From: Salvator merianae
Taxonomy: Eukaryota; Chordata; Lepidosauria; Squamata; Teiidae
Length of the DNA: 64,000 nt
NCBI GenBank assembly: GCA_003586115.2
Contig: QVOM02000116.1
Coordinates: 43,471,024 to 43,535,023 of the forward strand
Direction of reading: 5' to 3'
Positions 857 to 25,515 of the stretch are shown piece after piece; the first letter of the stretch is position 1; every line of letters starts with the position of its first letter. Below the pieces are notes generated by a model, which had not been told where the DNA came from, made no database searches, and saw only the letters and a program-made list of their open reading frames with translations. The position numbers were made by a program, and so were the translations under genes.

Positions 857-956
857 CTCTTCGATAGCATTCTTTCAGCATTTTAGAAAGCCACAAAACA
901 GCTTTTGCTGCTATTTTTGTTCCAAAATTTCTATCAAATGGAGAAGGAGCACCACC
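857..956 (-). CDS. PFKP: PFKP exon 20
   Basis: 100 bases, 33 codons plus G, beginning [14 protein letters not shown] and ending LKECYRRG (split). This is the last exon visible. The C-terminal part with FEHRIPKEQWW is not found between 1 and 856, so it should lie beyond the window edge. The acceptor is tttcacag and the donor gtaaga. Confidence 0.95.
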
Positions 957-2187
957 CTGTGAAATTCAAGATTTCAGTTTTAACATCAAATAATAATGTT
1001 AACAGTTTATAATGTTCTACTGAGGTAGAAAGAGGGACAAAATGACATATAAATTTTACATATAAAATTACATATAAATTCTTCACAACTAAGGATTTAG
1101 GATGAAAAGACCCATCTAGCCAGCTGGCCAGACACTGCACTGACTTCTCTTAATACACAGGTGATCTTTTGCTTTTATCTTATTTGTCTCATGTACACTG
1201 GAACACAGTTGGGAAATGTGTCTCCACATAATTAATATTTATTTATTTATTTATTTATTACAGAGAACTCTAGGCAGCACTAGGAATTTGGTGTGTCAGC
1301 AAGGGTTCTGAAATGAGATCTGCAGACACTCAAACCTTTGAAACATCAGTCTAAAGGTATGCTAACAGCTTCGTGCCTGATACACTAATGAGTATTAAAC
1401 CAAGTTCAAATGCAATTAAAATTGAGGAATATGGAATTTAATAGTAACAATTTAATGGCATATGTATCCTCCCTAGCCACACAAATGGTAGATCCAGTTT
1501 TCAAGATTCAGTGGAAACCAGTAGTCAGGTGCGTTAAACCTGTGTCATGATTTGCAATACAGCAGGGGTCCCCAACCACCGGTCCGCGGACCAGGATCGG
1601 GCCGTTGGGGGTTTTTTGCCCGTCCACGCCACCGCCGCAGACCAGCACTAAACACTGACAGTGTGCTCTGCTCTGCGGCGGCTCAGAGAACATTATGCAA
1701 GGCGTGACGGGGCGGGGAAGCGGGCTGGCCTCAGTAGACGTGGCTCCCGGCAGAGAATATTATGCGGGGCGTGCTGGGGCGGGGAAGCGGGCTGGCCTCA
1801 GTGACGCAGCTCCCGGCACAGCACATTATATGGGGCACGGTGGGGTGGGCCGGCGATCTGGCCACAGTGTCGTGGCTCCTGGCATAGCTCCTGGCGGGGA
1901 ACTGGTCTACAGCGCTGTAGTCACATTCACATTATAAATGTCATAATTAAATGATAAGTATGCACTAAACTCCAACCCCCTCCATAACCCCACCCCATAT
2001 GACCAAAGCCCCGCCCCTGCCCCACCCTCATCCCGCCCTGCCGGGCCATGAAAAAATGGTCTTGCTTGAAGCCGGTCCCTGGTGCAAAAAAGGTTGGGGA
2101 CCACTGCAATACAGAATACAAATACAAAGCCAGCATCTGCACACACTTTCCAGCCATAAAGAGGAGAATTCCTACTGGTGCCCTTAC
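957..2187 (-). other. PFKP: PFKP intron 19
   Basis: 1231 bases. It holds a TTTA microsatellite at about 1231-1260 and a 544-bp hAT element with intact target duplication (own entry). The rest is unremarkable. Confidence 0.9.
1563..2106. mobile_element. Non-autonomous hAT transposon, 544 bp
   Basis: The ends are CAGGGGTCCCCAACC and, inverted, CAGTGGTCCCCAACC (14 of 15 equal). It is flanked by a perfect 8-bp target duplication caatacag at 1555-1562 and 2107-2114. The 8-bp duplication and the CAG...CTG ends are the hAT superfamily signature, and the GGTCCCCAACC end is typical of Charlie-like hATs. The interior is GC- and CpG-rich, unlike its flanks, and has three tandem units of 66-67 bp starting at 1689, 1756 and 1822. 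There is no transposase frame. Confidence 0.9.
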
Positions 2188-2299
2188 CTGCTGCATGTGA
2201 CCCAGGACATTCTTTCTGCAGTCAAACACTCCTTTCCCTTCCTCAGAATACAGCTGGTAAATGAAGTCAGTAGTGTAATTGACATTACAGTTTTCATTC
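2188..2299 (-). CDS. PFKP: PFKP exon 19
   Basis: 112 bases: G, then 37 codons from [15 protein letters not shown] through [15 protein letters not shown] to LGHMQQ. It includes the Arg of CRKN and the HMQQ allosteric-site motif (PFKM 655 and 661-664, recalled). [16 protein letters not shown] favours PFKP over its paralogues. The acceptor is ttctatag and the donor gtaagg. Confidence 0.96.
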
Positions 2300-2455
2300 C
2301 TATAGAACACAGGCATAAGCATCATCAGTTTGTTTAGTGCAAATACAATTATGCTTTCCCAGGGAAGATTCCTTCCCCCCCTCCCAAAAATCAGTTTGCG
2401 TTTTGCAGTAATTAAATTGAATTAAACAATGCAAGCTGGAGAACTGTTGATGTAC

Positions 2456-2517
2456 CTCAGCACCAAGCCACGCTGAATGCTCGTCTTCATCTTTTCTGTC
2501 AGATGTTCTACATTGGC
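2456..2517 (-). CDS. PFKP: PFKP exon 18
   Basis: 62 bases, 20 codons plus AG, ANVEHLTEKMKTSIQRGLVL and a split Arg. It encodes a helix of the C-half leading into the GLVLRNE strand. The acceptor is ccctcag and the donor gtacat. Intron 18, which separates it from exon 19, is only 156 bases (2300-2455). Confidence 0.95.
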
Positions 2518-3335
2518 CTGAGGGAATATAACATTTTCCAAAACAAGTTAAAGCAGTGTAAAGGTTAAATCTTGTTAACCTTTGAGTTTACAGTAACTGA
2601 AGGAGTGTTCACTCTGTATCTCTAACTTAAGTCTACACCCCAGCTGTGCACATTTCTGTGCTAGTCAGGCCAAGCCTATCATTCTATAAATATCTCTTTC
2701 CAGCTGTATAAAGATATTAGTGCTCCAATCTTATATAGCAAAAGAAAACAATTCCCACTAAGTGTCCTCAAATAAATAATTGTTTTCTCAGCTTTATTCT
2801 GCTAGCATCTATAATCATATCAGCTTCCTTTACAGGGATTTTGCAGGGATTACCTAGGCATGATGAAAACTGCTTTGAAGACGTAAATGGTGTGCAGAAT
2901 AGATATCAGACACAACATTTAGACAGACAAAAAGCTTGACTGGTCAAGACTTGTGTAAAAATAAAATGACTCAAATTTTTGTGAGCAATTAAGTGATACT
3001 GTAACCACTGGGTTCTTCCACATCTCACTTTGGGAAAAAGGGAACAATGTTCTTGGGAAGATATGAAGTACTTTCTCTCACACTATAACCACAGCCCATC
3101 TCCAAATACCCAGCAATAACTCTGTTACTTCTAAGAACTACCATCCAAAAGTGTAATTTATGAAATCCCTGCCTGTGGGTCACGTGCTTCCAAAATCATA
3201 CCTTCCAACTTGAGAAATGGGTAGCAGGATAATGATAGTGGTGGCTGTGGTTGTGATAATAACACAAAGGGACACTTTAGCAGGGCTCCTTTTATCTTGC
3301 TATGCCCAGGTGGTGTTTTCCACAGTCCTTCTGGG

Positions 3336-3517
3336 CAGTGTCGGCCTGTTGCTTTAAGGGCTGGTGTTTGGAACCCGCAGGAAGAGAGCTATCGCTGTTT
3401 GCGGGGCCTCGGGGCACAGCTGCTGTGACAGTACGGAGGCCCAGAGGCCTCGCAAATAGCGATCATCCCTTCCTGCAGATTCCAAACACCTGCCCTTAAA
3501 GCGACGGGCCAATGCTG
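3336..3517. mobile_element. Fold-back hAT-type MITE, copy 1
   Basis: 182 bp, nearly all inverted repeat. The arms run CAGTGTCGGCC...GCTTTAAGGG and CCCTTAAAGC...GGGCCAATGCTG. It has a perfect 8-bp target duplication cttctggg at 3328-3335 and 3518-3525. It is homologous to 16140-16302 and 51275-51454. It has no coding capacity. Confidence 0.88.
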
Positions 3518-3898
3518 CTTCTGGGCATAGTGTAGCATTAAAAAAATTTCACTACTAGATTCCTTTTCAGGGGTACTGGACTCCATACCTTAATCTGGGA
3601 TCCTGGAAAGCAGACTGTGTCAACCCAAATTTGCTCTCCTCTCCAGATAGATATTCTATATCATATATATGGAAAAATAGAGAAAGGCTGCCCAGTAATA
3701 GAAACTATGCTGACAAGAACAGATGGTAGGCTTTAATGTATCTGATCCCTACCAATACTCATCCTTGCCTACTGCTGATAATTAGTCTGAGGGGCCTTCA
3801 GCAGTTTGGGGAATCAACTGTCAAGCAGATGTCATGGCTACTTTACTGAATTTCTAGGCAATAGCCACAAACAAAAAAGTAACTAGTTAGGATGAGGA

Positions 3899-4028
3899 GA
3901 ACATAAGAGAAGCCCTGCTGGATCAGGCCAGAACCCATCTATTCCAGCATCCTGTCTCACAACTTCTTCTGGGCATTCTCAAGCAGAAGGTAAAACCCTC
4001 ACCTGCTCTTGACTCCTTGCAAATGGCC
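3899..4028 (+). repeat. Dispersed reptilian repeat ('gaacataaga...ctgctggatcaggcc')
   Basis: It shares extended similarity with 52494-52650, including CATAAGA, CTGCTGGAT, CCATCTA.TCCAGCATCCT and CACCTGCTCTTGACTCC. I know this sequence type as a common interspersed repeat in reptile genomes but cannot name its class. Confidence 0.7.
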
Positions 4029-4074
4029 TGATTTATTACTGTTGGGTCTTTCACAGTCCAACAGTAATAAATCA
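4029..4074. repeat. Perfect 17-bp inverted repeat (hairpin)
   Basis: The arms tgatttattactgttgg (4029-4045) and its exact complement (4058-4074) are separated by a 12-base loop. It begins exactly where similarity of the preceding dispersed repeat to its second copy stops. Confidence 0.85.
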
Positions 4075-4994
4075 GTCACATCAAATACAAGATGATCCCT
4101 CCTAATGCTAACCAGTGACTCCCCACCCCCAGAACTGACTCTCTCCATCCTACCAAGCACAAGTTTAAAACAGGCCTTTGTTATTTCTCAAACATTAGTT
4201 ATGCAAAAAGTTGAAAGTATTAGCCAGAGATGGGAAACCTGTGACCCTATGGATGTCATTGACATTCACTCACTACCGGATATGCTGGGTGGGTTTGAAT
4301 TAAAAACAGAGTCTAACAACATCTGTAGGGCCAGACGTTCTCCTTCTTGATGCAGTCATGCTGTCTTGCAGAAAAGTGGAGAAAATCGTACAGATGGACA
4401 GAAGGGTTAAAAAAAATAGGCAATCTGGCAAAACTAAACAGAAAAAAAAAAATCATGATCGATACCTCTGACATCAAAATCGTAGTAGCTTCTTTTAGAT
4501 TGAAACCATAGCATAAATATAAGCTTCTGTTCTTTAACTCCCAGTTTAGGAAGGTTTCCTCAGAAACACTTCTGAAAAGCTTCCTCATTTCTCACTGCAT
4601 CTTTTGTGAGGTGATTATTGGGTACAAAGGTAGCTTTTTGGAAGCACTGCAAAGAGTAAATCCCGCAACGGACACAATTTCTGATGCTGCTGCACAAACT
4701 TGAGGTTGTGCAGCTATCAAGGCACACTTTGTGACAATGCTGTTCAAACAGTTTCTGATAGCACATGGGTATCTTGTACCATTTTTGCTAAATGTGGCAG
4801 TTCAGGACACCTGTGAGAAATCCTTTCACATCACCTGCAGTTCAATGGTATTCAACAAAGAGGGTTCTCTGTTATATTTACTGGTCACCAAGCAAAGCAA
4901 AGGTAAATTATCAGGTAGGTATCTGAATTTGAATCTGCCCACAGACACTGATTTACATACTGTACTGCTAAAAGATGATGTAGATTTTGCATAC

Positions 4995-5159
4995 CTGAAG
5001 TTCCCGAATATCAAATTTCTCTTCAAAGATATATGCAGCATCAGCACCTGCAGCCAGAGCTCCCATATTTGCCAAGTAGCCACAGTAGCCACCCATGGTC
5101 TCAATGATGAACACACGACGCTTTGTTCCACTTGCGGATAGTTTGATTCGGTCGCAGGT
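4995..5159 (-). CDS. PFKP: PFKP exon 17
   Basis: 165 bases, 55 codons, phase 0-0, beginning [20 protein letters not shown] and ending KFDIRELQ. It carries the allosteric-site Arg of RRVFIIE and the METHGG-position motif TMGGYCGY (PFKM 566 and 573-575, recalled). The acceptor is tttgttag and the donor gtatgc. It accepts either exon 16A (...TITD|TCDR) or 16B (...AIVE|TCDR). Confidence 0.96.
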
Positions 5160-5631
5160 CTAACAAAAGATGCACTGTTAGTGATTTCTGAATCAAAATG
5201 CTCATCATCACCAAAAGTTGATAGCTTAAAACTTTTCAGCTGCCCAACAACTTTACCCAGTAACAGCTATCACACACTACAGAAATTAATTTAAAAGGAT
5301 GAAAAGCACTGTCCTCTATCCATGATGCCTCTGGATTCCTAGTTCCCTGTACTGTTATTTTAAAGACAGCTAGAACAAATCCTATTTGCCATCAGGTAGG
5401 AGAGGCTTGGATTAATCACAGTGAAAGCATACTAAAACCAGCAGATTATTAACAAAATATAAATTAACCTAATGGTGATGATCTTGATGTCTAAGCAACC
5501 ATTCCAGTGAACCGAGTTTTACACTACTTCTGGACAATGCTCAAGAATTAACACTGATCATCTAGAAGAGGGAAAACACATTTTATAGCTGGAAGTCCAG
5601 TAGATTATTGGGGTAAAACTCCTTGGGTCTA

Positions 5632-6180
5632 GGGCCCTTTCTGCACTTACCTGCTGTTGATCCAGATCAGTGGGTCTGAATTAGCCCAGCTCACTGATCT
5701 GGATTGCGGGGACGTGTGGGTGGGATCAGCACTATCTGCACTGACAGAGCTGATCTAGATTAGCCCACGTTGGATCCACAAAGCTTGTGTGAGCTTTGTG
5801 GCTGCAACCCCACACCTCCAAAGGCTAGGAACAAAAGTTCCTAGCCTTGGGTCTCTGAGGGGTGGTTTCTGGTAGTACCTTATGGCACGCCACTAAAAAG
5901 GCACTCCCCGGTACTCCCGGAAATGGGAGGCATGCCTTCTGCACACTGCTCATGTTCTGGATCTGGGCTGCAAATCTGTCTAGTAGACCCAACTGATTGG
6001 ATCTACCAGAGATTCAGATTAATGCCTCCCTTAATCTGGATCTTGCTCTGTCTTATGCAGACGGAGCGGACCAGTGAGGGGCATGGCCTCATGGATCTGC
6101 ATGAATGTGCAGATCTATATGGCTTAGAAGTGAACTACACAGACTCTTAATATGGAGTAAGGGATTGTGCAGAAAGGCCC
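5632..6180. mobile_element. Non-autonomous DNA element, TIR GGGCCTTTCTGCAC
   Basis: The ends are GGGCCCTTTCTGCACTTAC and, inverted, GGGCCTTTCTGCACAATCC. The interior has several short inverted repeats, such as CTAGGAAC...GTTCCTAG and repeated GATCCAGATCAG-type blocks. It is related by ends and interior to 32475-32867, and by ends to 53128-53354 and 12230-12617. A clear target duplication was not resolved. It has no transposase frame. Confidence 0.65.
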
Positions 6181-6237
6181 TAGGACTTGGCCAATATGCT
6201 ATTTTAGGTAAGGATCTGAAGAGGGAACATTAGCTTA

Positions 6238-6474
6238 AGACAGAACTGCATGTTCAGCTAGTTTTGCCACAGCATTTTCCGCTGATAAAAATCTCTCAGC
6301 CATTTGTAGTTCAACAATAATGCATATCTCTTTGGGAATGGAAGTTTCTGCAGCAAAAGCAGCTTCAGCTATTGTGGCTATCTTTACATTTATTGGTTCA
6401 TACGCATGGATGTTTGTCATGCCAGGATTATAAAATGGACTTGTTGCTGATATAGTGTTACAACAAACTGCAAC
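6238..6474 (-). pseudogene. Unrecognised open stretch, 79 codons
   Basis: An open frame ending ...KLAEHAVLS and a stop, with an Ala/Glu-rich, protein-like composition (NIHAYEPINVKIATIAEAA, SIPKEICIIVELQMAERF). I do not recognise the family. It is not part of phosphofructokinase and has no obvious splice context in phase with exons 16 or 17. It may be a relic of a retroelement or retrocopy, or chance. Confidence 0.25.
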
Positions 6475-7622
6475 TTAGATTAGGTCTTTGAAAACAAGCT
6501 ACTGGATAGCAATCTAAGCACCTGTACGAACTCAGGCAATTTCTGCCAGTTCACATCCACATCTGCAACTTCCCTACACAATTCTCAAGGATCTCCAACC
6601 CCAAGCAGATTTTTTTTTTTTTTTTTTTGGAAATGCTAGAAGGCATACCGTATGAATTTTATTTTATAAAATTAAGAACATGAAAAATGAGAGCATTGGA
6701 CCAGTGGCCAATTAAATCCAGTACCCTGTTTTCACAATACAACCAGCTGCATGAAGAAGCTCACAAGCTTACAGACTCTTAACAACTGGCCTCTAGAAAT
6801 ATACTGCATCCCCTATGTGACACAGCTATTGAAATGGATAGCTACTGACAATCTTTGCCTAGCATGAAGAGGACCAAGCCATTTTTGAAGCTTTCCAAGC
6901 TGATTGGCAACACAGCATTTTATGGAGGTGAAGTTCAAAAATTAGCTATGCGTTACGGGGGGAGGGGGTGTGAGCTTCATTGGGTGATCCCAGTTCTGGT
7001 GTTTTGGAAAGAGGAGGAAAAAAAATTATCCACTTTGTCCACACCTTTCATAATTTAACATAATGTCTTATCTCATCTTCTTTTTAAGAAAAAAAAAAAG
7101 GACAACCAATTCAATTTTTCCTTGAAAGGGAACCTACATCTGTTGGTTAGAGACAAATATAACCAATTGCCCAAATACTCTCCTCCCCCCCAAAATGTAT
7201 GAGGCACCAAAAGACTCTTCATTCTCTTCTGGAAACTTTTGATTTGCATCACTACAAGCCCCTAGTTGAAATATCTAAAACAAAACAAAACAAAAACCTT
7301 GCCCACTTCGTACCTTTCAAGTGAGAACTTGCAAAGAACAAGTGACAGTGACAGCTGTATCCATATCTTTGGCAAAAGAAAAATTAGCTTTGGTGGCTAA
7401 TTGTCCCATCCATGCCAGAACTTGGATTTGGGGGCATTAATCTCGCTAACAGAAATCTGATGTGGGGAATCCCAAGTATGTGCCCAGAGTTTAGACAAAA
7501 TGGCTTTCAGAATTGGAATCTACATTTCTTACAGAGGCAGGAATGCAATGAAAGAAGGTTCGTAGAAATGTTTCTCTTCTTTCCACTTGCCAACACATTT
7601 TTTTAAGTCTCTTCCATCTTAC

Positions 7623-7775
7623 CTCTACAATGGCATTCAGGGAAGTGTCAGCACCGATACTGAAGTCAGTGCCAGGCACATTGTTGCTAATAGTAGCAGG
7701 CAACATACAAATAGGGATGCAAAATTCCTCAAAGCGGGTGCGTGCTTCGTATAACTGCAGACAGCTCTCAAAGGC
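7623..7775 (-). CDS. PFKP: PFKP exon 16B (duplicated alternative exon)
   Basis: 153 bases, 51 codons, phase 0-0, with no in-frame stop. The acceptor is actgcttcag and the donor gtaaga. It begins AFESCLQLYEARTRFEEFC and ends SIGADTSLNAIVE, containing PATISNNVPGTDFS. By hand alignment it is identical to 16A at 31 of 51 positions, and many differences are conservative (Y/F, K/R, D/E, V/I, S/T, A/S). It lies between 16A and exon 17, so it could replace 16A or be added in frame. Several residues (E3, LQL, EAR, ISNNVPGTDFS, NA..E) are as I recall them in the liver isoenzyme PFKL. The intact frame and sites argue against a dead copy. Expression cannot be seen from DNA. Confidence 0.88.
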
Positions 7776-10064
7776 CTGAAGCAGTGGTACAAGGAATGAT
7801 TAAATAACAGACTTTGCACTCTTGGCTGTGTAGAATTATTAGGCGTTCTGCTAGTGCTCTTTGTGTGTGGCAGAATAAGGTTTGGCTTTCCAGTGCTGCA
7901 AATATCCCCAAACTGGTGATTCTAAGAATGCTTTTTCTTATGAAAATCCATTTGCATTGGTGCAGAAGAAAATCAGTACAGGTTAGTAGAAAGATGAAAC
8001 AAGCAAACTGTGGAAGGGTCAGAGAAATCAGTGATGGAACAAGATATTCCATGTTCTGAAAGGTGGAGGAAAATATCAAAGTTATGTATATCCTGCTTTT
8101 GAGAATCATTTTCTAAGACGGTCTCAAAACAGCTGTAAAATTGGAAGAAGCTGCTAGTAGCTACAGATGCCTTACTAGCTAGACATTACTTTTGATGACT
8201 AATCCTCACTTCCTATCAAGTCATCTATATATGCTAGAGAAGTTGGGAAGCAGGTGAATCTGACACATGGCACTGGTCTCTGGCTCATACATAGGCATGC
8301 CAGAGCTAAGAACTCTTCCTTCATTTCGTGGAGCTCAAAAGCAGAGGGAGTTTCTGATGCCGCAGTGAACAGAATCCTTCACTGCAAAAACCCTGTTCAA
8401 AGCAATATTTTTGCAAGATGCATTTATCTACAATATGTATTTATTTCATTAGATTTGTACCCTACTCTTCACCTCATCACACATGCTAATAAGTACATGC
8501 TGTGCATGCTTACAAGATTTTTCCCTATACCAAGAACAATATCAGACAAGACTGAGCTCCACAGAGTTCCACCGACAAGGAAAATGTGGAAAATCACATC
8601 ATATACTTTAATAATTTGATTCCAGATGATTCAATACTCAGTACTTAATAAACCAGCAAATATTTTGCTATACAGAAGCAACAGCCTATCCTGTAATTTT
8701 CCAGATCCATTTTCCTGTGTTTTTGTCAGAATATGTTTTTCCGTCTCCCATTTTTCACACCTTTTCCAAAAATTCTTGATGACGGCAAATAGCAACTTTT
8801 TAATAGCCTATAATCTCCTTAGTGTGTACTTAATCCATTTCTACAAATGTGCTCTATCTTTTGCTCTAAACATAGACAGGAAACACTCTTTTGGTTGCTT
8901 CTGGTATCCTTTTTTAAGTGTTTGGTCATCTGCATTTTAACCTTTTTAGAGTATGTTCATGTTTGGAAAAAAAAAAAAGGCTCAAAACCCCCAGTGGTAT
9001 GTGACACTCATATTCTCATCCCATCTCTAATCCACTTTTTCTAGACTAAACCGGGGTGTGTGTGTCAGACTGCCATGTGAACATTCCCATCTGCAAACTG
9101 CCTCTGAGCTGCCTCAGAGATGTTTATTTTTACCACATTTAAATGCAGCCGAACTCTCCTATGCATTCTTTAGAGTCTCAGCATACTAAATAGCTCCTTA
9201 AGTACATTTATACTGGTAAGGTGTTCCATCTTCAACTTCTTATTGGAAAGCATGCCATAGTAACTTCACTATTCCCCCTTTCAATATTCCATGCCTATAC
9301 TATCCCACTTCTAGTCGGGAAAGTCAACACAGTATGCCCTTATTTCCCATAATCCACACTATACGCACTATGTGCTGTGTTTGTGTCCATTGTCAACACA
9401 ATGTCCAAGACGATATGGTCACTTTACACACACAGTTCCTGCCATTTTAACTACAACTGCCAGTTCTTCCTGATAAGAAAGATTAAGCTCAGTTTCAACT
9501 ACTCATTCTTCCATCTTTCAAAAGATTAATTTGACAGTGAGGCATTGCAAGAAAGAGTATACTGAAAAATTCCAGTAGGCTTCCAACAGGCATCAGGACA
9601 GTTAAAGAGCCTGTTACAAAGAAGGCTTGTTTCTGTGAGAGCTTTGTCTGAGGGAAGCATCCCACACCTTTTGATTGGCTAGCCAAACAAGAGCATACTC
9701 CTTTTGCTTCTGCCTCCTCCTCTGTTCTTATCCAGCTATCTCATAAGAAAGAAACTCAAATGTTTCAAAGGATTACTGTTTGCAAAATATGAGGTGCCAC
9801 TTTTTAAAAAGTCAGTGGCTGCCTGAGACATTTTAGCAGGCATAGGTTAAAAACCAGGATCCTTCTATACTGCATGGAGCTCCTGGAGTCCCTGTAAACA
9901 GCTCAAGTGAGGGATTTTAGCGAAGGATAAAAATAAGACAGCCACTTGTATAACGCCTAAAAAACACCATAAGCCTTTGGTGCAGCCACTTTAGAAATGC
10001 CAGTAATGGTTTCATTCTCTCAACAAATTATAATGTTGGACATGGAGTAGCAAAAGGTAACTAA

Positions 10065-10202
10065 GGCTGCATCCAGACATCACTTATTTATTCCGCTATA
10101 TTTGGATATTCTGCAATAAAGCATGGATATTTTGGAATATCCATGCTTTATTCCAGAATATCCAAATATAGAAAAATAATTAACTGATGTCTGGATGCAG
10201 CC
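10065..10202. mobile_element. Harbinger-like MITE, copy 1
   Basis: 138 bp, almost a full inverted repeat, with ends GGCTGCATCCAGACATCA and its inverted partner. It is flanked by TAA at 10062-10064 and 10203-10205. The 3-bp TWA-type duplication suggests the PIF/Harbinger superfamily. It is homologous to 58140-58268. Confidence 0.8.
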
Positions 10203-12229
10203 TAAAATGCACAGCATACTGAAGCACTTTTGCAAGGAAGGAGGACTAAAGTATTTGAGTGTTTGTAGTTCATTAAAAGAGGTACCTGTGTGATAGGGAT
10301 TTACAAAATTATGCATAGTGTGAAGGAGGTGGATAATGAGTTCTTCTTTTCCCCCCCCTTTAATTCTATAAGAACATTGGTCATCTAATTCAACTGCTCC
10401 GAAAGACAGCACTTCTTGATGTGTTGCAATGTGATGATAGTTTAGGTAGCCATAGAACTGAAGTCAATAAATTAATGGAACACAAGTCTATGCTGCTACT
10501 CGTGACACTCTGCCTGTCAGCTCTAGGAATGACCATGGACAAATCTACCACCATCACTACATGCTGTTTATATACTTCACAGAGGCAACTATTTGGTGGC
10601 GTGGAAAACAGGATCCAGAAGTGTCAACCTGGTCACTGCACTGCCATTTTTGAAGCTCTAATACCAGGCACTGCCTGTTTGCATATTTCACTGACTCTGC
10701 TTTTCCTTTGCTCTAGAGGTAAGCATGTAACACTTGGAAATAATTTGAACCGGTGTTGTCTGAAAGCCATTTGGAGCCTGAGAAAAACCAGGAGTTTGTG
10801 TGGATGTTTGATGTAAGGGCTACTCCTGTCAACATAGGTGGGAAAGTGCTGAGGGATATATATGTCTGCTGGTGTTATTTTCTGGATGATCTGTTATTTG
10901 TAAATCCTGACATGCTGCTATAAAGATAAGTCTCCCTGTCTTTGAGTCTGACCTGTGAATAATAACCTTGATAAGAAGTCTATGTAACCTAGCATTATTT
11001 TACAAAGCAAGCACTGCAGGTGAAGGTCAGGGGACTACATTTATCACAATTTAATAACAGGAGCATACTGGCTTCTAACCCCCCCAAAATTATGCATAAT
11101 CAAAAAGAACAAAGAAAAACCTTAATAGCAGACAAAAAGTGTGACACATAATATTTATTAAAAAACAAGGGATTGTTTCTTGTAAAAAAAAAACCTTGGA
11201 ATATTAATATTCAATACGTACATACACATGCATGCTACTGCATTAGGAGTTTTCCTATCTTAAGGAACTAGTTTTGCACTAGTGTCTTCACACTGCCCCC
11301 GATTCCAGGGTACATCTAAAGCACATAGTCAGTTCTAATATGATGTAAGCTAGGCAAAGTGCATGTTACAAAAGATCTACAGCTATTGTCTACCTATAGA
11401 CTAGACATGCGTAGCATTATCTGCATTCTAAGTGTAAAGCAAAAGATGAAGAAAGAAAGAAAACTTATGTAGGCCCAAAGAATAATCCGTTTTAAAGAAA
11501 AACCAATGAAGAAGAGAAAGCACAGCAAGAAATATGCAGGGAAGTATTACCCACCTTAGTTTGTGAACAAGACTTGAGGTGGAGAACTTTATGTACCAGA
11601 ACTAAGAAAGTTACCATGTGAGGAAGACGCCCTGCCTATCATCAAGTATTTAGTGTCCTGCCAAGAATAACATCAGCTTTTTGTCTTCTGCTGCATCTGT
11701 TAAAACAGGTTGCAGCCCATAAGGCTTACATCATGGGCAATCATAAAAGTGTTCCCATAATCTTTAAAGACTTGCACATCCGTGCTTGTTCTTTATAACA
11801 GAAACCTAATGTCAGGACCTATGGCTAGATGCTTAAGCACTGTGGTAGCAATGATGGAGGGGATTGGGACCATACTGGTTTGTTAGAAGAGCTCTCATGA
11901 GGGTGTGTAACAGGTCCAAAGAATGGGTAGATGGCAGGAGTCTGGAGGGGTTTGCAGTCTGAAAGCAGGATCATATATCTGCCCCTGCATCTGCTGTTAC
12001 CATTCTAAAACAAAGGAGGCAAACTTTACCCAAAGTTTGGAAGTTAACTGTGCCCACTGGCAAGTCTGCAGGAACAACACACATGGACCCCAAGAAAGGA
12101 TCATAAAGTGATCCAACACAGTTGCAAACTAAGCATGCTATGGCCCTTACATCTGTCTGCTCGTGTGGTTTACAGGGAGGCCACACACCCTGCTAGCATG
12201 CTGAGTTTGCATTAGATGCAGCATAGCCC

Positions 12230-12617
12230 AATCGAAGTGGCCAAAATGGCTGCCCAGACTGGGATACCAGTAAACCTGTTTTAACAGATCTGTCAGTGGT
12301 CTAGAAGGTGTAAAGTGGCCCAGGAGGCATGCAGAAGGGTGCATGCCTCTGTGGGCCAGTTCAGCAGGGGGACCCATTTCAAAATGGGTCCTGTGGGGGC
12401 TTTGAGGCTTGGAACTTTGGTTCCTATCCATCACACAACCCAGAAGCTGACTCCAAAGATTGTACAATCTTTGGAGCCAGTGCGAGGGCTGTCGTTGAAC
12501 AGCCTTCCAAGTGGAAAGGCTCCTTCCTGGACACTAAGAGGAATCCAGTATCTGGAATGCTGCAGACTAGCCCAGTCCTGCTGGACTGGGCCAATAAGGT
12601 AAATGCAGAAATAGCCC
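12230..12617. mobile_element. Truncated relative of the GGGCCTTTCTGCAC element
   Basis: The right end reads gtaaatgcagaaatagccc, a diverged form of that family's end. The interior shares blocks with 32475-32867 (GATACCAGTA.ACCT, GGCTCCAAAG). A perfect 26-bp palindrome sits at 12451-12476. The left end is missing or too diverged, so the start is approximate. Confidence 0.5.
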
Positions 12618-13248
12618 ATCAGTCACAGTGGGAAGCAGAAACATTCCTCTGGGTATGAACTGTACTGCAAACGTGTTGGTTCACTTGACTGTGGTACCAA
12701 AATACTGTGCATAGAATGCAATGAAGATTTTTGAGGTGACGTGTGTTCTTTAGTGTCCACTGAACCATCAAAAAGTATAGAACTTTCAGCCAATTTGATC
12801 CATCAGACGTAGTTCAATTGTGGGCATTCTGCCTATCTCTGCTGAAGGGCAATTTAATTATTATCTTTTGGTTGTCAAACCAACTTTGCCATCTGAGTTT
12901 TAAAATTATCTGCTTTTCTTGAAAGATCTCCTTTTTTTCCCCTAAGAACTTATCTTAGACATATTTCTGTATGATTTAGCATCACTTTGACATTATCTCT
13001 AAGCAGCTTTGAGGATCAAATTGCTGAAAAGAAAAGACATGTACTAAAAATAAGAACCTGTACAAATCAGTAAAAATCCATGAATTTAGCACATGCTGCA
13101 TATGTGTACAGCTTCACACTTGCTTCTAGTTTCTGCTGTAATCAGATTTTCTGGTGTTCTGGTTCAAGAAATGCTCCAGCTCCAAGCATGTCAATAGCAA
13201 GATGAAGGCTATGTTAGTGAGCATGTACACAAGAGAAGAAAGACTTAC

Positions 13249-13401
13249 ATCAGTGATAGTGTTCAGAGCAGTGTCTGCACCAATGCTGAAATCAGAACCT
13301 GGTACATTGTTGGATACGGTTGCAGGAACCATAACCATAGGAATACAGAATTCGTCATATTTCTCTCGGGCAGCAGAGAGTTCCAAAAGTCCCAGGTAGG
13401 C
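13249..13401 (-). CDS. PFKP: PFKP exon 16A (canonical alternative)
   Basis: 153 bases, 51 codons, phase 0-0. It begins [19 protein letters not shown] and ends [13 protein letters not shown], containing [14 protein letters not shown]. It matches the standard PFKP sequence. TVSNN aligns with residues 528-532 of human PFKM (recalled), which bind fructose 2,6-bisphosphate in the C-half. The donor is a strong gtaagt. The acceptor ...cccattag has a poor pyrimidine tract, because a perfect 8-bp hairpin occupies -8 to -27. A homologous exon of identical length and phase (16B) lies 5.5 kb downstream in the transcript. Confidence 0.95.
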
Positions 13402-14902
13402 CTAATGGGCACACATGGCAATGTGTGCAAAATGAGAGGGGACAAAAAAATAGTACATTACAGCAATAGGGGAAGGATTTGGCAGGGGATCTGAATACTG
13501 TAATACACACACACTTTGACTGGAGACAGATTTTTTTTTGCTCTCTTTTTCTAAGAGAGTCCAAGATTATTTGAAAGAGAAATCATGCTCACTCCATTTT
13601 CATCCTTGGTAAAGCACCTCTTTCCCTTTATTCCAAGTTCTGTTGGAATACAGATGACAGAACAAAAACATTGCATACTCTATGGACATGTAGCCACCCT
13701 CAAAGCCTTTTGTACAGCTTTGAAACTATTTTCTGTCTCCAGCCACAAAGAGACACTAGCAAAGACCTGATATAAAACAGATAAATACGTAAGAACAACA
13801 CAAGCAAATACCTCTATCATGAACTGTTGCTATAATTCTAAGTATTCTGCAAGTTGAATCTAGTAGTATATTGAGCAAAGGAAATGTAAAGTCCCATATA
13901 CAAGTTACTTTTTTCCCACTAGTGCAACAAATTATATCATGAAATATTTAGAATTTGGACAGCAGGCTAGATTTTTAAGCAGAGGCTAAATGACATGGAG
14001 TAATTAATTTTCTGTGTAATAAAGAAGTGTGACATTTCCACTGAAAAAAAGACAGACTCAGGGCAGAATTCTAGCTCCTATTATCAAACAATGTGAATTC
14101 GTTTCTAGATAGCATTAGATTTTTATTTTCTGCTTTCCCCTTTTTGTGCCGCTGGTGGCTGGTGGAATGATGAAACAACAATTTTGTTAGACACAATGGG
14201 CCCTGCTATTTTGGCCCTCACTGAAGCTAATGAATGAGTACATCCATTCTCTTAACAGAAAATATTTCCAGAGTATGACCTGAGGATCCCAAGGATCTGC
14301 TATCTTCCTAGTGCAGTCAAGGGGAAGCATCCTTCCAGGGCGTAAGTCAACATCAATCATTCCTACAAGTCTAACTTTTAACCTGTTCCAGTTCAGTACT
14401 GATGCAATGCTCTTGCATGGAGCCAGATGAAATTAAAGACTCAGGAGCCAAAAGATATCTTGTTCAGTGGAAGCTGTGCCAGTGCATACTTTTGACCCCC
14501 AAAGAAGTACAGAGAAAGGGATTTCCTTTCCTTTAAAGATTTTACTAAAGTTTTTCTTTCCCGAGTAATATCTTACACTTCAACAGTTGCATATGGTTGT
14601 AGCATTTCTTAGAAAAATAGCAGCAAAGAGCTCTCCAAAAGAGGATTACTGGCACAAATGCAATTAGCTTCAATTACTCATCTAAAAAGTAGTCTTATGG
14701 CATGTTAATATTCAAATCATAAAAATTTAACTGGGTTTTAAATCTGAATTTTGGCTTGCTTTATTCATTCATTCATTGGACTTGCAGACCGCAGATTTCA
14801 TAAGGATACTGTACAGTTTACAGATAAAACACAAAATTGCTTAAATTACTTCATAGCATTTCCCACTAGCAATAAATAAAAATGCAGCATCAAGGAACGT
14901 AC
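13402..14902 (-). other. PFKP: PFKP intron 15
   Basis: 1501 bases. Apart from the hairpin next to exon 16A, no repeat family is recognised. There is a short ATTC run near 14762. Confidence 0.8.
13409..13428 (-). promoter_or_regulatory. PFKP: Hairpin in the 3' splice site of exon 16A
   Basis: In the transcript it reads GCACACAU-UGCC-AUGUGUGC: a perfect 8-bp stem with a 4-base loop, from -8 to -27 relative to exon 16A. It occupies the place of the polypyrimidine tract, which is otherwise poor here. Folding could limit U2AF access and make 16A dependent on other factors. The structure is seen. The regulatory role is inferred. Confidence 0.45.
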
Positions 14903-14990
14903 CTCAAATCCACCAATAACTAAGAGAGCACTGATGTTATGAGTTCGCATTTGTTCCGCAATCTTCTCCAAATACTTTCCAGGGAGCGTA
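14903..14990 (-). CDS. PFKP: PFKP exon 15
   Basis: 88 bases: T, then 29 codons, TLPGKYLEKIAEQMRTHN to LLVIGGFE. It ends in phase 0 immediately before the duplicated exon. Either 16A or 16B can follow without changing frame, both restoring GGFE-A[YF]. The acceptor is attttag and the donor gtacgt. Confidence 0.95.
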
Positions 14991-15503
14991 CTAAAATTAT
15001 AAACACATTTTAAAAGGCTTTCAGCAATACTTTTTCACAATCCTGTATGGTGCCCTTTACAGTTTTATAAAATCAGGACAGATTTTATGACAGACATATT
15101 CAGATTGTATGTTTCAGAACATTACAGAGAGCCTGTTGTTCCATGCTTATGAATGCATGGGCTCATTTGTGTAATTTTAATGTCTCTGACATGTAGCCAT
15201 AAATAAATATAAGAAATAAATCCTAGTTTTCCCTCCCTTTTTTGTCTATGACATATAAAGTTAAAATATTTATATTTCAGGATGAATTTGCAAAATCTCA
15301 CTTGATGATACCTTTAAAGTAAGTTTTCCCTTTTTAAAAATAAACACAGAACAGTGACTGGTAAAAAAACAACAACAGTGTTTGAAGAAGATTCTTCTGT
15401 ATGAAAAAATAACTGGTTGAAGAAGAGAAGAAGTCTGACTGGATAAAGAGTAAGTTCCTGAAGAATGAGAAGTTTTACAGATTATAATTAAGAGAACCTA
15501 AAG

Positions 15504-15895
15504 TAAGGTGACCAATCGTCCTCCTTTAGGGAGGACAGTCCTCCTTTTGTAAGTTCCGTCCTCCCTCGAAAAGTGTCCTCCTACATGTCCTCCTTTTTGA
15601 TATTGGAAGACTAATCTGTAAATGTCCGTATTCGATCGATGCAGAGTCGATCCATTGCGCGTATTCATTTAGACAATATTATCTAAATGAGTACATTTTT
15701 CTTACAATTATTATTAAAAATTAATAAGCATGTAAGCATAATTACAATATAAAATATTACAAATGTTTTTATTATGCATTTATCATATTATAGTGTATTA
15801 TTGTTGCAATGAATAAAATGTTTCTTCTATTTACGATATTGTTTGTTCAATTTATTTTTGTCCTCCTTTTCATTGTAAAAAAGTTGGTCACCTTA
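15504..15895. mobile_element. Non-autonomous DNA transposon with TAAGGTGACCA ends
   Basis: 392 bp with perfect 11-bp terminal inverted repeats TAAGGTGACCA. It is flanked by cctaaag at 15497-15503 and 15896-15902 (8 bp, acctaaag, if the terminal A is counted as target). This is hAT-like. The left part is packed with GTCCTCC/TCCTCCTTT repeats and the right part is AT-rich. There is no coding frame. Confidence 0.85.
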
Positions 15896-16139
15896 CCTAA
15901 AGCAAATGTCCGAGCCAGGGGGAAGTTCTATAACAAGATCTGCTGAATTAGATTTCTAATGTTTTTCAGTGCGTTCTTTTAAATTTGTTTTATTGTTGCA
16001 ACTTGCCCTGAGACATCCAGGCTTAGGGTAGGATAAAAATGCGGATGCATGAATATATACAGAAATAAACATTCATTAAGTATTCATTCATATTTGTACT
16101 CTGCCCTATCATTACATATCAATTAGGGTGACTAAAATG

Positions 16140-16302
16140 CAGCAGTGGCTGCTGGGTTTAAGGGCGGGTGTTCGTAACCTTCGGAAGGTGTACGATTGCA
16201 GTTCATAGGGCCTCTGTACTGTTCCAGCAGGCCCCGCGAACAGCAATCGGATGCTTTCTGTGGGTTATGAACACCTGTCCTTAAAGCCAGCGGCTGCCAC
16301 TG
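16140..16302. mobile_element. Fold-back hAT-type MITE, copy 2
   Basis: 163 bp, inverted-repeat arms, ends CAGCAGTGGCTGC and CAGTGGCAGCCGC (inverted). It has a perfect 8-bp duplication ctaaaatg at 16132-16139 and 16303-16310. It is homologous to 3336-3517 and 51275-51454. Confidence 0.88.
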
Positions 16303-17009
16303 CTAAAATGTATAAATTAAAGGGTCTTCGTAGAAGAGAGTGCCAATAGTATTTTTGGGGGTGGCGAAGGAAGGAGAATATTATGATTGTCACGAACCAG
16401 TGGGATGGGGAAAGATATATTAAATAAAGAGTATATGGCAAGTAGACTCTAGGCAGTCTTTTCATTTTATGGAAGAAACAGTTTCATGCCTACAGCCTGG
16501 CCTTCACAGCATCACAGCAACCAACTGTCTGCATGTGGCACGAACAGCCTTGCTTGACATGAGGTGGCAAAGCTTGCTTTTTATCTAGTACAGCTTAGCA
16601 TAGCAGCTGTGGCTGTTCCTGCAACATGGTAGGGCACTGGGGGGATATCGGAGTGATGGTGGTGGCAACAGGGTGAGGGTGGTAGGGTCGGGCCCTTCAA
16701 GCTGCTTGGTGGGCAGCCAGCAGTGATAGCTTGTGTTACGCTGCTGCTGACCTGGACCACAGCCCCTTGCGTGGGTACACTGGTGGCTGAAACAGACTCA
16801 GTGCTGGGATTATGTGCTGACAGGATAGTCCTGTTCCAGCCAGGAAAGTCCTTGGAAAAACCAGGAATGCGCTTTGGCGTCTGGTCTCCGAGGATTTAAG
16901 ATGGTCTCCATCCTTCTAAAACAGAAGGTGTGACTGCGGCCTAAGGGTCAAAAAGTACAAAAATCATAACAGTTTAGTGAAAACACAACACAGGACATCT
17001 TTAAATTAC

Positions 17010-17080
17010 CGTTTTGTGCCGAGAATTGATCCTCCTTGGCCAGTCCAACCTCCAACATCTCCCCAGCTGATTTCTTTGAT
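17010..17080 (-). CDS. PFKP: PFKP exon 14
   Basis: 71 bases, 23 codons plus CG, reading IKEISWGDVGGWTGQGG then SILGTK. The split codon CG|T makes the Arg of GTKR, an allosteric fructose 2,6-bisphosphate contact in the family. The acceptor is gattatag and the donor gtaatt. A 107-bp tandem repeat lies 279 bases upstream, in intron 13. Confidence 0.95.
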
Positions 17081-18715
17081 CTATAATCACAAGGAAGGGA
17101 TGTTAAATGTGATTTTTTTAAATAATAAAAGCTATAGTTTAGAACAGATGTTACTAAACACTTATATGAACAAAGAGATTTATTGCATCAAAGCCCCAAA
17201 TGTTAGCACAGTACCTAAGATTCTTGTAGCACTTAATTCCAACAGTATTTTGACTTTTCCAGCATAAAATACAGATCACCACCTTAGAACTGTGAGCTTG
17301 GGCTGTCTTGTATAATTGTACAAATATTTATGCCTCTTTCAATGGTAGCATTATCAGGCTTGCCTGACGGGAGTGGAGAAGAGGAAGCAGACTAGGAATT
17401 CTGTCTTCTTGCATCCAGCACTGGGTCTTCTCTTCTCTAACTGCCACCAAAAGGCTGCATACCATCTTGCCCAAGGGAGTGAGGAAGAGACAGCAGGCTG
17501 TGTTGCTCCGCCATCTTGCTCCCAGAGGTGGCCCCTCCCTTCTGCAACTGCCACCACAAAGCTATGGACCATCTTGCCTGAGGGGAGTGGAAAAGAGTCA
17601 ACAAGCTGTTGGGAGACTGCAAGCAGAGCAAGGGGTCTGCTCATGTCCTGCAGGTGGGCTTCTTTGTGCAACTCGTTGGTCACTGTGAGAACAGATTGCT
17701 GGATTAGATCGCTGGGCAGGGGGCACTTCTTATGTTATCATGATCACCTTCTGTTATGAGTATTATACTACAACAGAAAGCCCAAGACTGGGACAACTAT
17801 AAACACAAATTTTTACAAACACTGCTTCCGGAAATAGAAATCAAATGTAAAAACACATTTTGTGATATTTCCTTTCAGCTACAGTTATCTAGCCTTATTT
17901 CTAGATATTTCATACTCCCACAACTATTCAGGGACAGGGCACAATGCCAAAAACAACTCCTGCCAAGGTCTCCTAAAAGCTGTCCTCAGATAAAACATAC
18001 AGAATATGATAAAGGAACATATAGGAAGCAAATTCCTTTTCATAATCATCGTTAATCACAGGCTTTTCTGTTTGTTTGTTTTTTTAAAAATAGTACTTTT
18101 AGAAGAATTACAGGAAAATTTGCAGCAAATTAAGCGACAAGCTCTAGGACTTTAGGGAAAGGAAGCAAACATAATTGTTTTACAATAGTCTTGCAAATAA
18201 ACATTGCCTCCCCCTCAAAAAGATCTAATATTCCATGTTCGTTAACATAATTTTGGTACTTTATTTTATTCTATTTTAGTGATACAGAAATAAATAAATA
18301 AATATAAATTAAAAAATATAAATGAATAACTATTCTACTATCCCCCCCCCCCAAATTGGACAGCAGACAGATTTGATGCTTTTAATCAAGAGCCTCTATG
18401 AGAGATGCTCACTGCTATAAATGCACTGTGTTCTAGAAAAATGAGAAATATCTCCCATGAAATTTCATAAAATTATTCTCTAAATTTAACAGATGCTCTA
18501 TCCAATGAGAAACTCATTCCATTCTGCTTTCAATTCCCTTTAGGTAAAACTTCAAAGGAAAAAAATAGCTTTAATTTGTTTTAATCCTATCTGCGTATGA
18601 CACTGTACTAAACTTAAACAAAAAATTAAAACCTGTTGGGATAGATGAGCCGCAAGTGTTTTGAAGAGATTACCCAACGCACTAAGATGTAAGATAACCT
18701 TTAGAATATACTGAC
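17081..18715 (-). other. PFKP: PFKP intron 13
   Basis: 1635 bases. It holds a 107-bp tandem repeat (17359-17680). The remainder is AT-rich with short A and C runs (18343-18353). Confidence 0.85.
17359..17680. repeat. Tandem repeat, three units of 107 bp
   Basis: Units start at 17359, 17466 and 17573, each beginning CTTGCC. They share GGGAGTGG(A)GAAGAG and CAACTGCCACCA.AA blocks. The third unit decays toward its end. No target duplications were seen. Confidence 0.8.
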
Positions 18716-18862
18716 CTGACCTCTAGAAAAGCCTTCGAATCCATCAGTGACTGCAAACATTTTGTGTCCTTCAGTTATACCAATTCTTACAGCAGATCGA
18801 ACTGCAGCATTCATTCCAGCTGCTGGTGCACCAACATTTAAAACTGCTACATTAAAATTAGA
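18716..18862 (-). CDS. PFKP: PFKP exon 13 (start of C-half)
   Basis: 147 bases, 49 codons, phase 0-0, beginning [18 protein letters not shown] and ending GFSRGQ. It opens the regulatory C-terminal half: [14 protein letters not shown] mirrors the N-half LTSGGDAQGMNAAVR but lacks the catalytic glycine-rich turn, as is normal for this half. The acceptor is ttcttgcag and the donor gtcagt. Confidence 0.96.
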
Positions 18863-21127
18863 CTGCAAGAAATGAAGGGAAAATGTTTTCAATTAAATGT
18901 AATGCATGTGGGATGTCAGAACCCTCTCACATTTTTTCCTCCAAAATGGTAAGCGGGCAACAAAAACTCAAGGTATTTACTAGAATTTTTAGTATAAACA
19001 ACCACTTGTATTTAACATATCTAGTCCGAATGTTAAGATTTCAGCAGCAGCTCTTACAAAGCTTAAGTACAAGAGGAGGGAGTTATTATGAAGTCAGACT
19101 GAATATTTAGTTTTTTCTTTTTTCGCTTTGCCATTGCTGACAATTGTATTTCAATGATCTGTGATGGCTGAGCTGATGGAAGTTGTAATTTAAAACATAC
19201 ATAGGGAGCTAGGTCAAGAAACAATAACTTGTAGTAGGCATATGCTCTGGTTCAGCTTGGCTTTTCTTGAACCACTCCATATATGAGCACCCAGTCATAC
19301 TATTAAATATCAAACTGGCTGAACCACTGAGCCAGGGAGACAGTGCCTTGGTATAAGAAGGATCAATCACATCAAGGCTTCCATTCACCTTCCAGTGCAA
19401 CGTGTGTAAGTAAATAATAATTGGAAGGGAAGATTCTATCAGTTTGATGACCTTAGCAGTAAAAAGTTCCCATCATACCTTCTGCCTTTCTGTCTGCTAG
19501 ATCAATAGGGTGTAGGGCATAAAAATGCTTTACTTTCTGTTAAGCACCTTTGGTAAGTAATGGAAATGTCCTGGTTCGGTTCATAACGAATCTAAGCTGA
19601 ATACAGACAAACTATTCATTCCCAAAATTTAAAACTGCCTTTCATAGAACTTGCCAGTTGGTTTGGATTCAGGTTCAAGGAATGCCTGTTCATGCCTACA
19701 GCCTCCTCCCAGTCTTCGCTTATGTCCTCAGTCTATCCCCCATTGTATCTGTGGCTTCCTCCCTTCCTCTCTCACACCTGTATCTCACCCACCTGCTGGC
19801 CCAAGCTGAATTGTTACTGCTAGCCACACAGTTCTTCCAAAGTCCAGTTGGCATGCTTCAACTTGGTCTACCAGGACTTCCAAATTGGAGAACCAAGGAT
19901 CCTCCCGGAAGGCCATGTGTGTCCCCGCTTCACTGAAGGTCTTGAATGCAATCAGTCAAGTTTGAGGATTTCCAGGAAGTAGAGACAAGCACATCCACAT
20001 GCTTGGCTTTCTGGGAGGATGTATAGTTCTTTTCTTAAAAGGTGCAAGTGAATTACCTTCTGCCTCCATTTCCTCCCTTCTGCTTCTTCCTGAGGTTTTT
20101 GTAATGGTTGGATTGTCATTCCCTCCATATCCTCCCATGTTTTTTCTATGGCTCAATGCCTCCAGGGCAGCTGGCCTCCCCCAGAGATCCTCTTCTTCTG
20201 CCCCCCTTCCCCAAATGCATAAATGGGGGAGCCAAACCATGCAATAGCAAGGAAATAGAACCACGTAAATAGAAGGTCACAATCAGTCAGGCGTGCAATA
20301 GCAAAAGCACACTGACCAAAACATGTAAATTGAGATCAGACTGTAATTCCTCTTATGCTTTCAGCAAAGTTGACATGAATTAGGTATACAGTCCTTACAA
20401 GCTGAAAAGCAAATATGAAAAGGAAAAAGGGCAAAAAGAAAGATAAAGCACAGGAGGTGGCACATTCTCATTTTTTCATGCAATATTCAAAAAAGACCAC
20501 AGGTAGCCAGACTTGCTTTAAACTGGCAAGGATGCCTTGCTTTATTTATGCAACTGAATCTAAAGCAAGCTCAGCATCAAAATCAGACTGGCTGATATGT
20601 TCTACAGTGATGGGGAAACCAATTTAAGGATGCACTGATTTGCCCAAAGACTAATATTGAACAGACACATAAAAGATATGATTGGCACATTTTCTGGCCC
20701 CATTAGTAAAACTGTCTGAAATAAAAGTTTTAAACTAGTATGAATGAAATTCCTAAGTTTATATGCTACAGCAACCTGCAGAGGATGCCATGAATCACTA
20801 TAGTCACCACATTAAGTAACTTAAAGGACGCCACACACAGACAAGCAATGATGAGTCATGAGCTGAGCAAACATGAGAATTTTCAGTTCTGTATGTGGCT
20901 CAAATGCAATAAAACCCAGTTGTAAAATTGCATCCAGTCCACAACCAGTATGCACTTAAGGGTATCTCCAAGTCCTGCCTTAGACAACATAAAAGGAATA
21001 TAGAAATCCATAAAGGGCAGAATAGAAATCTAAAGAAATGCAAATAACACTCGAACAGTTAAAAGGCTCTGGTCCTAATTATAACTGAATTCTCAGAAAT
21101 GGCAAATAAGGAGGTAATCCTATATCT

Positions 21128-21310
21128 TCTTGTTGGGTACTGGGCTGGGCATGACTTCTGCTTGTCTACTTGGGTCCTTCCGTGGGCCCCTGTATGCTGT
21201 TTTCCTGGCAGATATACAGAAGTGGTTTGCCATTCCTACTTCTGGGGAGAGGCTGAATCCATGACCCTCTGCTTTTTAGGCAGTTTGCTCTATAATGAGT
21301 TACAGCCACT
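21128..21310 (+). repeat. Dispersed SINE-like repeat, copy 1
   Basis: It shares TTTTC.TGGCAGA.ATACAGAA.TGG, GGTTTGCCATT and CTACTTCTGGGGAGA with 55990-56190. The sequence type is common in lizards (GTTGGGTAC...TCTGACTC start). I cannot name the subfamily. Confidence 0.6.
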
Positions 21311-22497
21311 CTTATTTCTTAGCTTTCCCATTCAAACTATAGGACAGGGTTCACAAAGCTGAAGCTTTTCCTGTATTTGCTTTGACTATAGCAAAATATT
21401 TCCAAACCCTTTCTTTGTTTTTACGGATTGGTTGCAAAAAAATCCCTGGCCTGCAGTATGAAGACACATAACAAAGGAAAGGACTAGTTTTATCTTCATA
21501 TTAGCCGCTTGCAAGAATTGGGCTAGAACAATGATTCCTCAATTCTCTCAACAGTCTTCTCATGGCATCCTTTGCTATCTATGTGCTTTTTGGTTTGAAA
21601 GCTACATGAGAACTTTGAGCACATGACTTTAGAGAAACTAATCTACATTTAACTAGGCAATCTAATCTTGCAGACCAAATGAGCAATTACCAGCTCCCTT
21701 TAGAGAAAGTTAAGGCCGTGGGAAAGTTCATGCAAACAGACACACTAATCAATCCATACCAATTTTTCAGTAAATGCCACATATTCGAAGCATGTAAAGA
21801 ATGTTTCCTCCCCTGGGCATTCTTCCTATTGCCTTGGGGCAAAATGGGAGCAGCTCCCTGGAGACCTAAAGCCCTTCAAATTCCCTTCACCTTTTTCCCT
21901 CCTTTCTCACAAGTCCTGGTAATTACTCCATTCTTACACCAAGTGCAAGAATGGTTGGGATTCTTAGAAGCCAGCCAGCTGCTGTGCCGTCAATGAAAAA
22001 TCAGAGTCACTTCAAGACGTCTCTTAATGACCCTAAGAAAGCAGGGAGTAAAGCAAAAGAGCACAAGCTCCCCCATGCTCACTCTACCTTCTTGATCTGA
22101 AAAAGTGCAGCCCTGCTGGAGAGTCTGGCAGTAGGTCAGGTCTCAAATGGAGCCCCTTATGACACTTGTGGTAGGCCCAATGAGGAAGCGTCACAGCAAA
22201 GGAGTGTTTTCTGCAGCCCAAGTCTGTCTATATACTAAGTCATATAAAAATAGTGGAATTGGAAGATGAGGTGTCTTATGTGTTCCATGCAACATTTCAA
22301 TGGAATCACACATTCATTTTCTTCTGCCTTTTCACCTTCTGTTAAGATCACAATACATTGGAAATCTTTGCATTTTTAAGAGAATAATTTAAACATCTCA
22401 AGGTCACTTCTTATGCATGGCAAGACTTGTGTGGCAAAACTAAAAGCAGGACTTGAATGTATTTGGCATCTAACTGTAAGCAAAAATGTGCAGAGTT

Positions 22498-22547
22498 GGA
22501 AGGAAGGAAGGAAGGAAGGAAGGAAGGAAGGAAGGAAGGAAGGAAGA
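22498..22547. repeat. GGAA microsatellite
   Basis: About 12 perfect GGAA units on the plus strand. In the PFKP transcript this is a TTCC pyrimidine run. Confidence 0.95.
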
Positions 22548-23730: not shown

Positions 23731-23810
23731 CTGTAAAAGAAAACAGCATTTTCATATTATTGCTCTTCATAATAATACATTTTCTCTATGTTGTTACAGG
23801 CCATGCAATC

Positions 23811-25493: not shown

Positions 25494-25515
25494 CACATGC
25501 ACACATGCACACACA

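Follow-up and report, generated by a model that had tools for sequence, protein, structure and literature searches.

A tandem pair of alternative exons in the PFKP gene of Salvator merianae and its possible origin before the vertebrate phosphofructokinase paralogues

PFKP encodes the platelet-type form of the glycolytic enzyme phosphofructokinase. The PFKP gene of the reptile Salvator merianae holds two intact homologous copies of exon 16, here called 16A and 16B, and their order and conservation can be followed through public gene models from lamprey to squamates and mammals. The two exons are very probably the reptile copy of an alternative exon pair already known in PFKP, of which normally one is spliced between exons 15 and 17. 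Inclusion of one exon at a time would yield two forms of the enzyme with as many as 20 differences within 51 residues of the C-terminal, regulatory half, residue 539 in the effector loop being valine in the A form and isoleucine in the B form. The exchange is presumably used in S. merianae, it may change the response of the enzyme to effectors, and trans-acting splicing repression is the putative means by which the two exons are kept apart.

Structure of the exon pair and its gene

The window, namely, the whole stretch of 64,000 nucleotides that was analysed, was searched by tblastn with a human PFKP sequence as query to place the exons, and splice sites were then read (Table 1). Exon numbers follow the human PFKP count. 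The open frame over exons 2-20 comprises 669 residues whichever isoform is taken; a search of the window revealed neither PFKP exon 1 nor the last exons. The gene is PFKP, as the preliminary description had proposed: outside exon 16 it is closer to PFKP than to PFKM or PFKL, and the window falls inside the PFKP clade (100/100) in a tree built without exon 16.

Table 1. Position of the gene, the exon pair and the neighbouring exons in the window
Feature	Position	Strand	Remark
PFKP gene, exons 2-20	857..52938	-	tblastn placement and splice-site reading
Exon 15, constant exon upstream of the pair	14903..14990	-	
Exon 16A, 153 nt, phase 0-0, peptide with TVSNN	13249..13401	-	type found in solved human PFKP chains
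Intron 16A-16B, 5473 nt, U2-type ends	7776..13248	-	
Exon 16B, 153 nt, phase 0-0, peptide with TISNN	7623..7775	-	closest solved chain is PFKL
Exon 17, constant exon downstream of the pair	4995..5159	-	

Exons 16A and 16B are a tandem duplicated exon pair, being adjacent, internal, equal in length and phase, and homologous in their products. Exon 16A is bounded by gcccattag/GCC and GAT/gtaagtct and exon 16B by ctgcttcag/GCC and GAG/gtaagatg, each with an AG acceptor and a GT donor; the context is consensus-like, and the splice sites of both exons are predicted to be functional. The introns on the outer sides of the pair measure 1501 nt (15-16A) and 2463 nt (16B-17). The preliminary description had reported two 153-base, phase 0-0, GT-AG exons in tandem between exons 15 and 17, with peptides identical at 31/51 residues and free of stops, and these particulars were all confirmed from the window sequence. 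The two exons agree at 94/153 bases, and at 35, 40 and 19 of 51 for the three codon positions, as expected from an old duplicate under protein constraint. The further statement that most differences are conservative only just holds, given that 11 of the 20 have a positive BLOSUM62 score (three zero, six negative). When either exon was compared with the whole window by tblastn, the other copy was found at E 4.5e-21 and 1.3e-20 and the next-best matches at E 5.2 and 0.41; thus, the likeness of 16A and 16B is not due to chance. No third exon-16 copy was found by tblastn within the whole window.

The TVSNN/TISNN loop corresponds to a fructose 2,6-bisphosphate site in PFKM. Its TVSNN form corresponds to PFKM 528-532 because the PFKM segment begins at residue 501, so the numbering given previously was correct. 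PFKP residue 539 is exon position 29. The assignment of the loop as an effector site agrees with Lam et al. 2021 (PMC7954323), where a supplementary figure legend names residue 539 as FBP-binding and records its change from valine to isoleucine. The first third of the exon holds 11/20 of the differences between 16A and 16B, and the proposed protein effect, namely, V539I together with this changed segment start, is based on position and on the published prediction.

Repeats and possible transposon remnants were observed elsewhere in the window. A GC-rich unit of 66 bp occurs in three tandem copies at 1684-1884, within the intron that separates exons 19 and 20. At 15510-15890, the intron that follows exon 14 holds an AT-rich stretch with GTCCTCC-rich flanks and GTGACC/GGTCAC near the ends, which is perhaps a DNA transposon remnant. 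Two dispersed repeat pairs, 24408-24480 with 45080-45152 (82%) and 3898-3961 with 52499-52562 (86%), look like interspersed elements.

Earlier reports and conservation of the pair in vertebrates

The exon pair is already known. In the accessible passages of Lam et al. 2021 (PMC7954323), human PFKP is listed among genes with exchangeable homologous exons and set beside PKM, and the mutually exclusive exon event is considered likely to alter allostery; passages of Martinez-Gomez et al. 2022 (PMC9741552) repeat the human event. That event concerns the same gene and the same change from V to I at FBP-binding position 539, but another species, and it was matched to the window by gene, residue number and change, not by the sequence of 16B. 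PFKP isoform models of many vertebrates, in RefSeq and other sources, contain the same two exons in the same A-then-B order. A word search found no mention of PFKP, PFKM or phosphofructokinase in the main text of either Hatje et al. 2017 (PMC5740500) or Abascal et al. 2015 (PMC4465641). The preliminary description had treated the pair as a discovery, a view that was not borne out because the event is published for human PFKP and annotated in many vertebrates, and its presence in S. merianae is nothing unusual among vertebrates. Its proposal of two isoforms differing in the allosteric half is supported by the published human exchange.

Three protein searches, from which the best 120 of 1824, 6579 and 5426 matches were taken, provided 245 distinct proteins. 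Two of the searches were swamped by tandem models; the third, with a shorter query and a length limit that excludes proteins above about 796 residues, brought the invertebrates. Among the matches listed, A followed by B with the motifs exactly 51 residues apart was found in 142/245 proteins, and at least two copies of a SNN.PG[ST]-like motif in 138 of the first 143. The listed vertebrate PFKP models mostly contain both exons together, which had not been foreseen. Models with A and B came from lamprey (P0140), great white shark, elephant shark, manta ray, sturgeon, bowfin and many teleosts; from frogs, salamander, turtles, alligator, gull and squamates; and, among mammals, from red deer, grey seal, ground squirrel, horse and two cats (P0146, P0147, P0148, P0150, P0152, P0157). 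The pair lies 51 residues apart in the shark proteins P0086 and P0125. A search for the 16B peptide in other vertebrates had been suggested, and public protein models contain the peptide, preceded by A, in groups as far apart as lamprey, sharks, birds, squamates and mammals; the pair is conserved in distant vertebrates, the fetched proteins covering lamprey, sharks, teleosts, amphibians, sauropsids and mammals. As for invertebrate chordates, the pair was not found in the amphioxus proteins P0221 and P0223, which show one form each. No B-only protein was identified among the proteins parsed, in a search order that favours tandem models. A low-quality model from Coryphaenoides rupestris (P0001) shows A, B and then a second partial B, which may be a model error or a further duplication.

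The two exons differ in their apparent rate of change. Phrynosoma platyrhinos (P0003) is 100% identical to the window in 16A and 94% in 16B, and for Phrynosoma, Alligator, Rissa and Macrochelys the identity to window 16B ranges from 88 to 94%. At the level of the whole protein, and with the tandem exon of the models counted as a gap, the window is 81-86% identical to nine models from sauropsids (squamates, alligator, turtle and gull). Across 24 species including the window, each represented by one hand-chosen protein, mean pairwise identity was 0.865 for 16A, 0.731 for 16B and 0.918 for exon 17, and 16A identity exceeded 16B identity in 237/276 species pairs. Exon 16B evolves faster than 16A, most of all in mammals, where identity within four species (P0146, P0147, P0148, P0157) was 0.66 for 16B versus 0.935 for 16A; among the other 20 species 16B identity was 0.77. 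The pattern looks as if the role of 16B had loosened or changed in mammals. A comparison of 76 distinct A with 99 distinct B peptides revealed three positions that are fixed differently at >90% in each form (A/B), namely, 533 V/C, 539 V/I and 546 S/T.

Choice between 16A and 16B in splicing

For all four splicing outcomes (A, B, both and neither) the reading frame is kept and stays open across exons 2-20, so exclusivity cannot come from frame, in agreement with the preliminary description. A short intron is ruled out as the cause by the 5473 nt between 16A and 16B, and a U2/U12 clash by the donors, which are both GTAAG, and the lack of a U12 branch motif. The mutually exclusive class does not require such enforcement, and membership is therefore not excluded by its absence. 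With none of these three features imposing a choice, splicing-factor repression is the likely route. In PKM, splicing of exons 9 and 10 is controlled by PTB and hnRNP A1. These exons (PKM1/PKM2) resemble the PFKP pair in that they are exchanged in a glycolytic enzyme and alter its fructose-bisphosphate control (passages of Lam et al. 2021), and PKM differs from PFKP in enzyme family. Tandem homologous exons separated by repression are also described for U2AF1 exons Ab/3 and other U2AF-responsive tandem exons in PMC5224494, of which the accessible passages do not name PFKP and state that SRSF3 loss raised transcripts holding both homologues in most tandem-exon cases.

Two sequence features near the pair may serve as leads from this one genome. 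The AG-free zone before the acceptor is 87 nt in 16A, the second longest of 20 exons, and 34 nt in 16B, and a long AG-free zone is a feature discussed for duplicated exons in the passages of PMC5224494. Eight classes of splicing-factor motifs were counted in the 300-nt flanks, of which only TTCT/TCTT was then tested; this motif, which is dense around the pair, occurs 40 times in the four flanks (P 0.007 versus window tiles and 0.0012 versus other exon flanks, uncorrected for eight classes, the class having been chosen after looking). As for complementary docking sequences, six inverted pairs of at least 18 nt were listed in the region 5160-14902, and the strongest of them was rejected as a candidate, being a palindrome of its own and transposon-like. 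At 10064-10203, inside the 16A-16B intron, lies a near-perfect palindrome with 68-nt arms that are 91% complementary and separated by 4 nt; given a related copy at 58137-58198, it is a small inverted-repeat transposon-like element. A search of Rfam at the gathering threshold gave no match.

Public annotation suggests that exclusivity is not absolute, A and B standing back to back in the 142/245 proteins among the matches listed, but the list is biased because the two exons of a tandem protein both add to its score and bring it to the top, and it says nothing on the frequency of double inclusion. Many of the listed tandem models are named as one of several numbered isoforms; should some of them represent genuine transcripts, exclusivity would be a tendency rather than a rule. 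An alternative explanation goes further and holds that 16A and 16B are routinely spliced in together, the main second product being a protein longer by 51 residues. Frame would allow it and the tandem models are consistent with it; we nevertheless consider it improbable, because protein lists favour tandem models and the solved human PFKP chains carry one copy only, of the A type. Structure prediction with AlphaFold2 gave a mean pLDDT of 55.7 for the alligator tandem protein (20 tandem models), with values <50 over 531 to 730, versus 76.3 for the single-copy amphioxus enzyme (20 invertebrate sequences, equally large alignment), in which the exon-16 residues reached 92-94 at 511-540 and 69-73 at 541-560. 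These values weakly hint that tandem copies may not fold well, in a contrast that is weak because the two alignments differ in diversity; the confidence for the tandem protein was too low for its structure to be used as evidence. Hardly credible is the explanation that 16B is an unused, decaying copy, for which its faster evolution and its low identity within the four mammals could be cited. In the window 16B has an open frame and consensus splice sites, it is closely similar to 16B of other sauropsids, and its TISN core is nearly invariant in the 99 distinct B peptides, whose source gene models favour intact exons; use of the exchange in human is published in the accessible part of PMC7954323. 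An exon pair normally included one at a time thus accounts best for the observations.

Relationship of exon 16 to the PFK paralogues and age of the pair

Exon 16 appears to contradict the gene tree, with 16A placed with PFKM, 16B with PFKL, and the flanking sequence uniting PFKP. Against solved chains (PDB), 16A scored 102 bits with PFKP, 79 with PFKM and 64 with PFKL, and 16B scored 77.5 with PFKL, 72.7 with PFKP and 69.6 with PFKM. In an exon-16 tree of 62 segments, based on 51 columns and on one PFKM and two PFKL sequences, PFKP-A grouped with human PFKM (98/97) and PFKP-B with PFKL of human and sturgeon (98/92), and ten invertebrates lay outside both groups. The PFKM exon-16 sequence is identical in human and rabbit. 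In the tree without exon 16, PFKP including lamprey formed one clade (100/100), and the flanking exons 15 and 17 alone kept PFKP together (96/93). In the window, 16A matches PFKM at 36/51 and PFKL at 29/51 residues, and 16B matches PFKL at 34/51 and PFKM at 29/51. All 76 distinct A peptides are nearer PFKM, and 98/99 distinct B peptides are nearer PFKL, with one tie.

Constrained trees were compared to evaluate this placement. Uniting A and B cost 18.7 lnL units (28 rows), and in a parametric bootstrap of the united hypothesis, for which a shorter search was used, 0/100 simulations reached the observed cost (maximum 2.75). Placing PFKL outside cost 5.6 lnL (0/50 simulations, highest 2.7), placing PFKM outside 13.8 lnL (0/50, highest 6.3) and the opposite pairing (A-PFKL, B-PFKM) 24.6 lnL. 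Joining A and B cost 9.8-27.7 lnL in 12/12 runs (four row sets by three models), and 16.6 and 4.9 lnL with the full C20 mixture. The AU test on A and B as one clade gave p 0.119 for the 62-segment set and 0.087, 0.096, 0.116 and 0.123 in further runs. A quick mixture run with seven rows dropped (three species of A and B, plus Paragonimus) gave a joining cost of 0.87 and an AU p of 0.478; the B+PFKL branch decreased to 87 (unstarred), and A+PFKM stayed at 99. Parametric tests of this kind are liberal, and the AU test is weak on 51 columns. Among single residues, window 16A has V539, S546 and T558 in common with PFKM, and these are seldom seen in the invertebrate rows. I539 and T546, which B has in common with PFKL, predominate in the invertebrates as well, and the B-PFKL side may consequently reflect shared old states.

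The simplest reading of the conflict between exon 16 and the gene tree is that the pair is older than the vertebrate PFK paralogues, PFKM and PFKL keeping one exon each. We regard it as fairly likely that the pair was already present when PFK was a single gene, ahead of the duplications early in vertebrate history, and that PFKP then retained both exons, PFKM being left with the A type alone and PFKL with the B type alone. Passages of Steinke et al. 2006 (PMC1508162) trace the PFK paralogues to the two early genome duplications and pair liver with platelet; our tree without exon 16 groups muscle with liver, weakly (86/86). The association of A with PFKM and B with PFKL implies that the exon duplication came first under either order. 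A competing and less probable reading, to which some credence is still due, places the exon duplication within the PFKP lineage, later than the separation of PFKM and PFKL and earlier than the lamprey split, and takes the likenesses to be convergence, retained old residues or noise. In its favour, none of the AU tests rejects A and B as one clade at 0.05, and I539 and T546 are possibly ancestral; it is opposed by the cost of joining A and B in every one of the 12 runs and under C20, by the simulations that never reached this cost, and by the rarity of V539, S546 and T558 in the invertebrate rows. If the origin before the paralogues is true, what began as alternative splicing of one gene turned into the use of different genes, and PFKP would still have both old versions of the effector site, with one each in the muscle and liver enzymes. 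Exon exchange would then directly test how much of the isozyme difference in effector response sits in 51 residues, and the PFK family would clearly illustrate how splicing and gene duplication can substitute for each other. The partition of the exons among the paralogues was not found in the titles, abstracts and passages searched; supplements and most subscription papers were beyond reach, so we make no claim that it is unpublished. An exon-16-like segment is also repeated in fluke PFK models, three times in Paragonimus kellicotti (P0121) and twice in Calicophoron daubneyi (P0144); the copies are identical or nearly so and are perhaps assembly or model errors.
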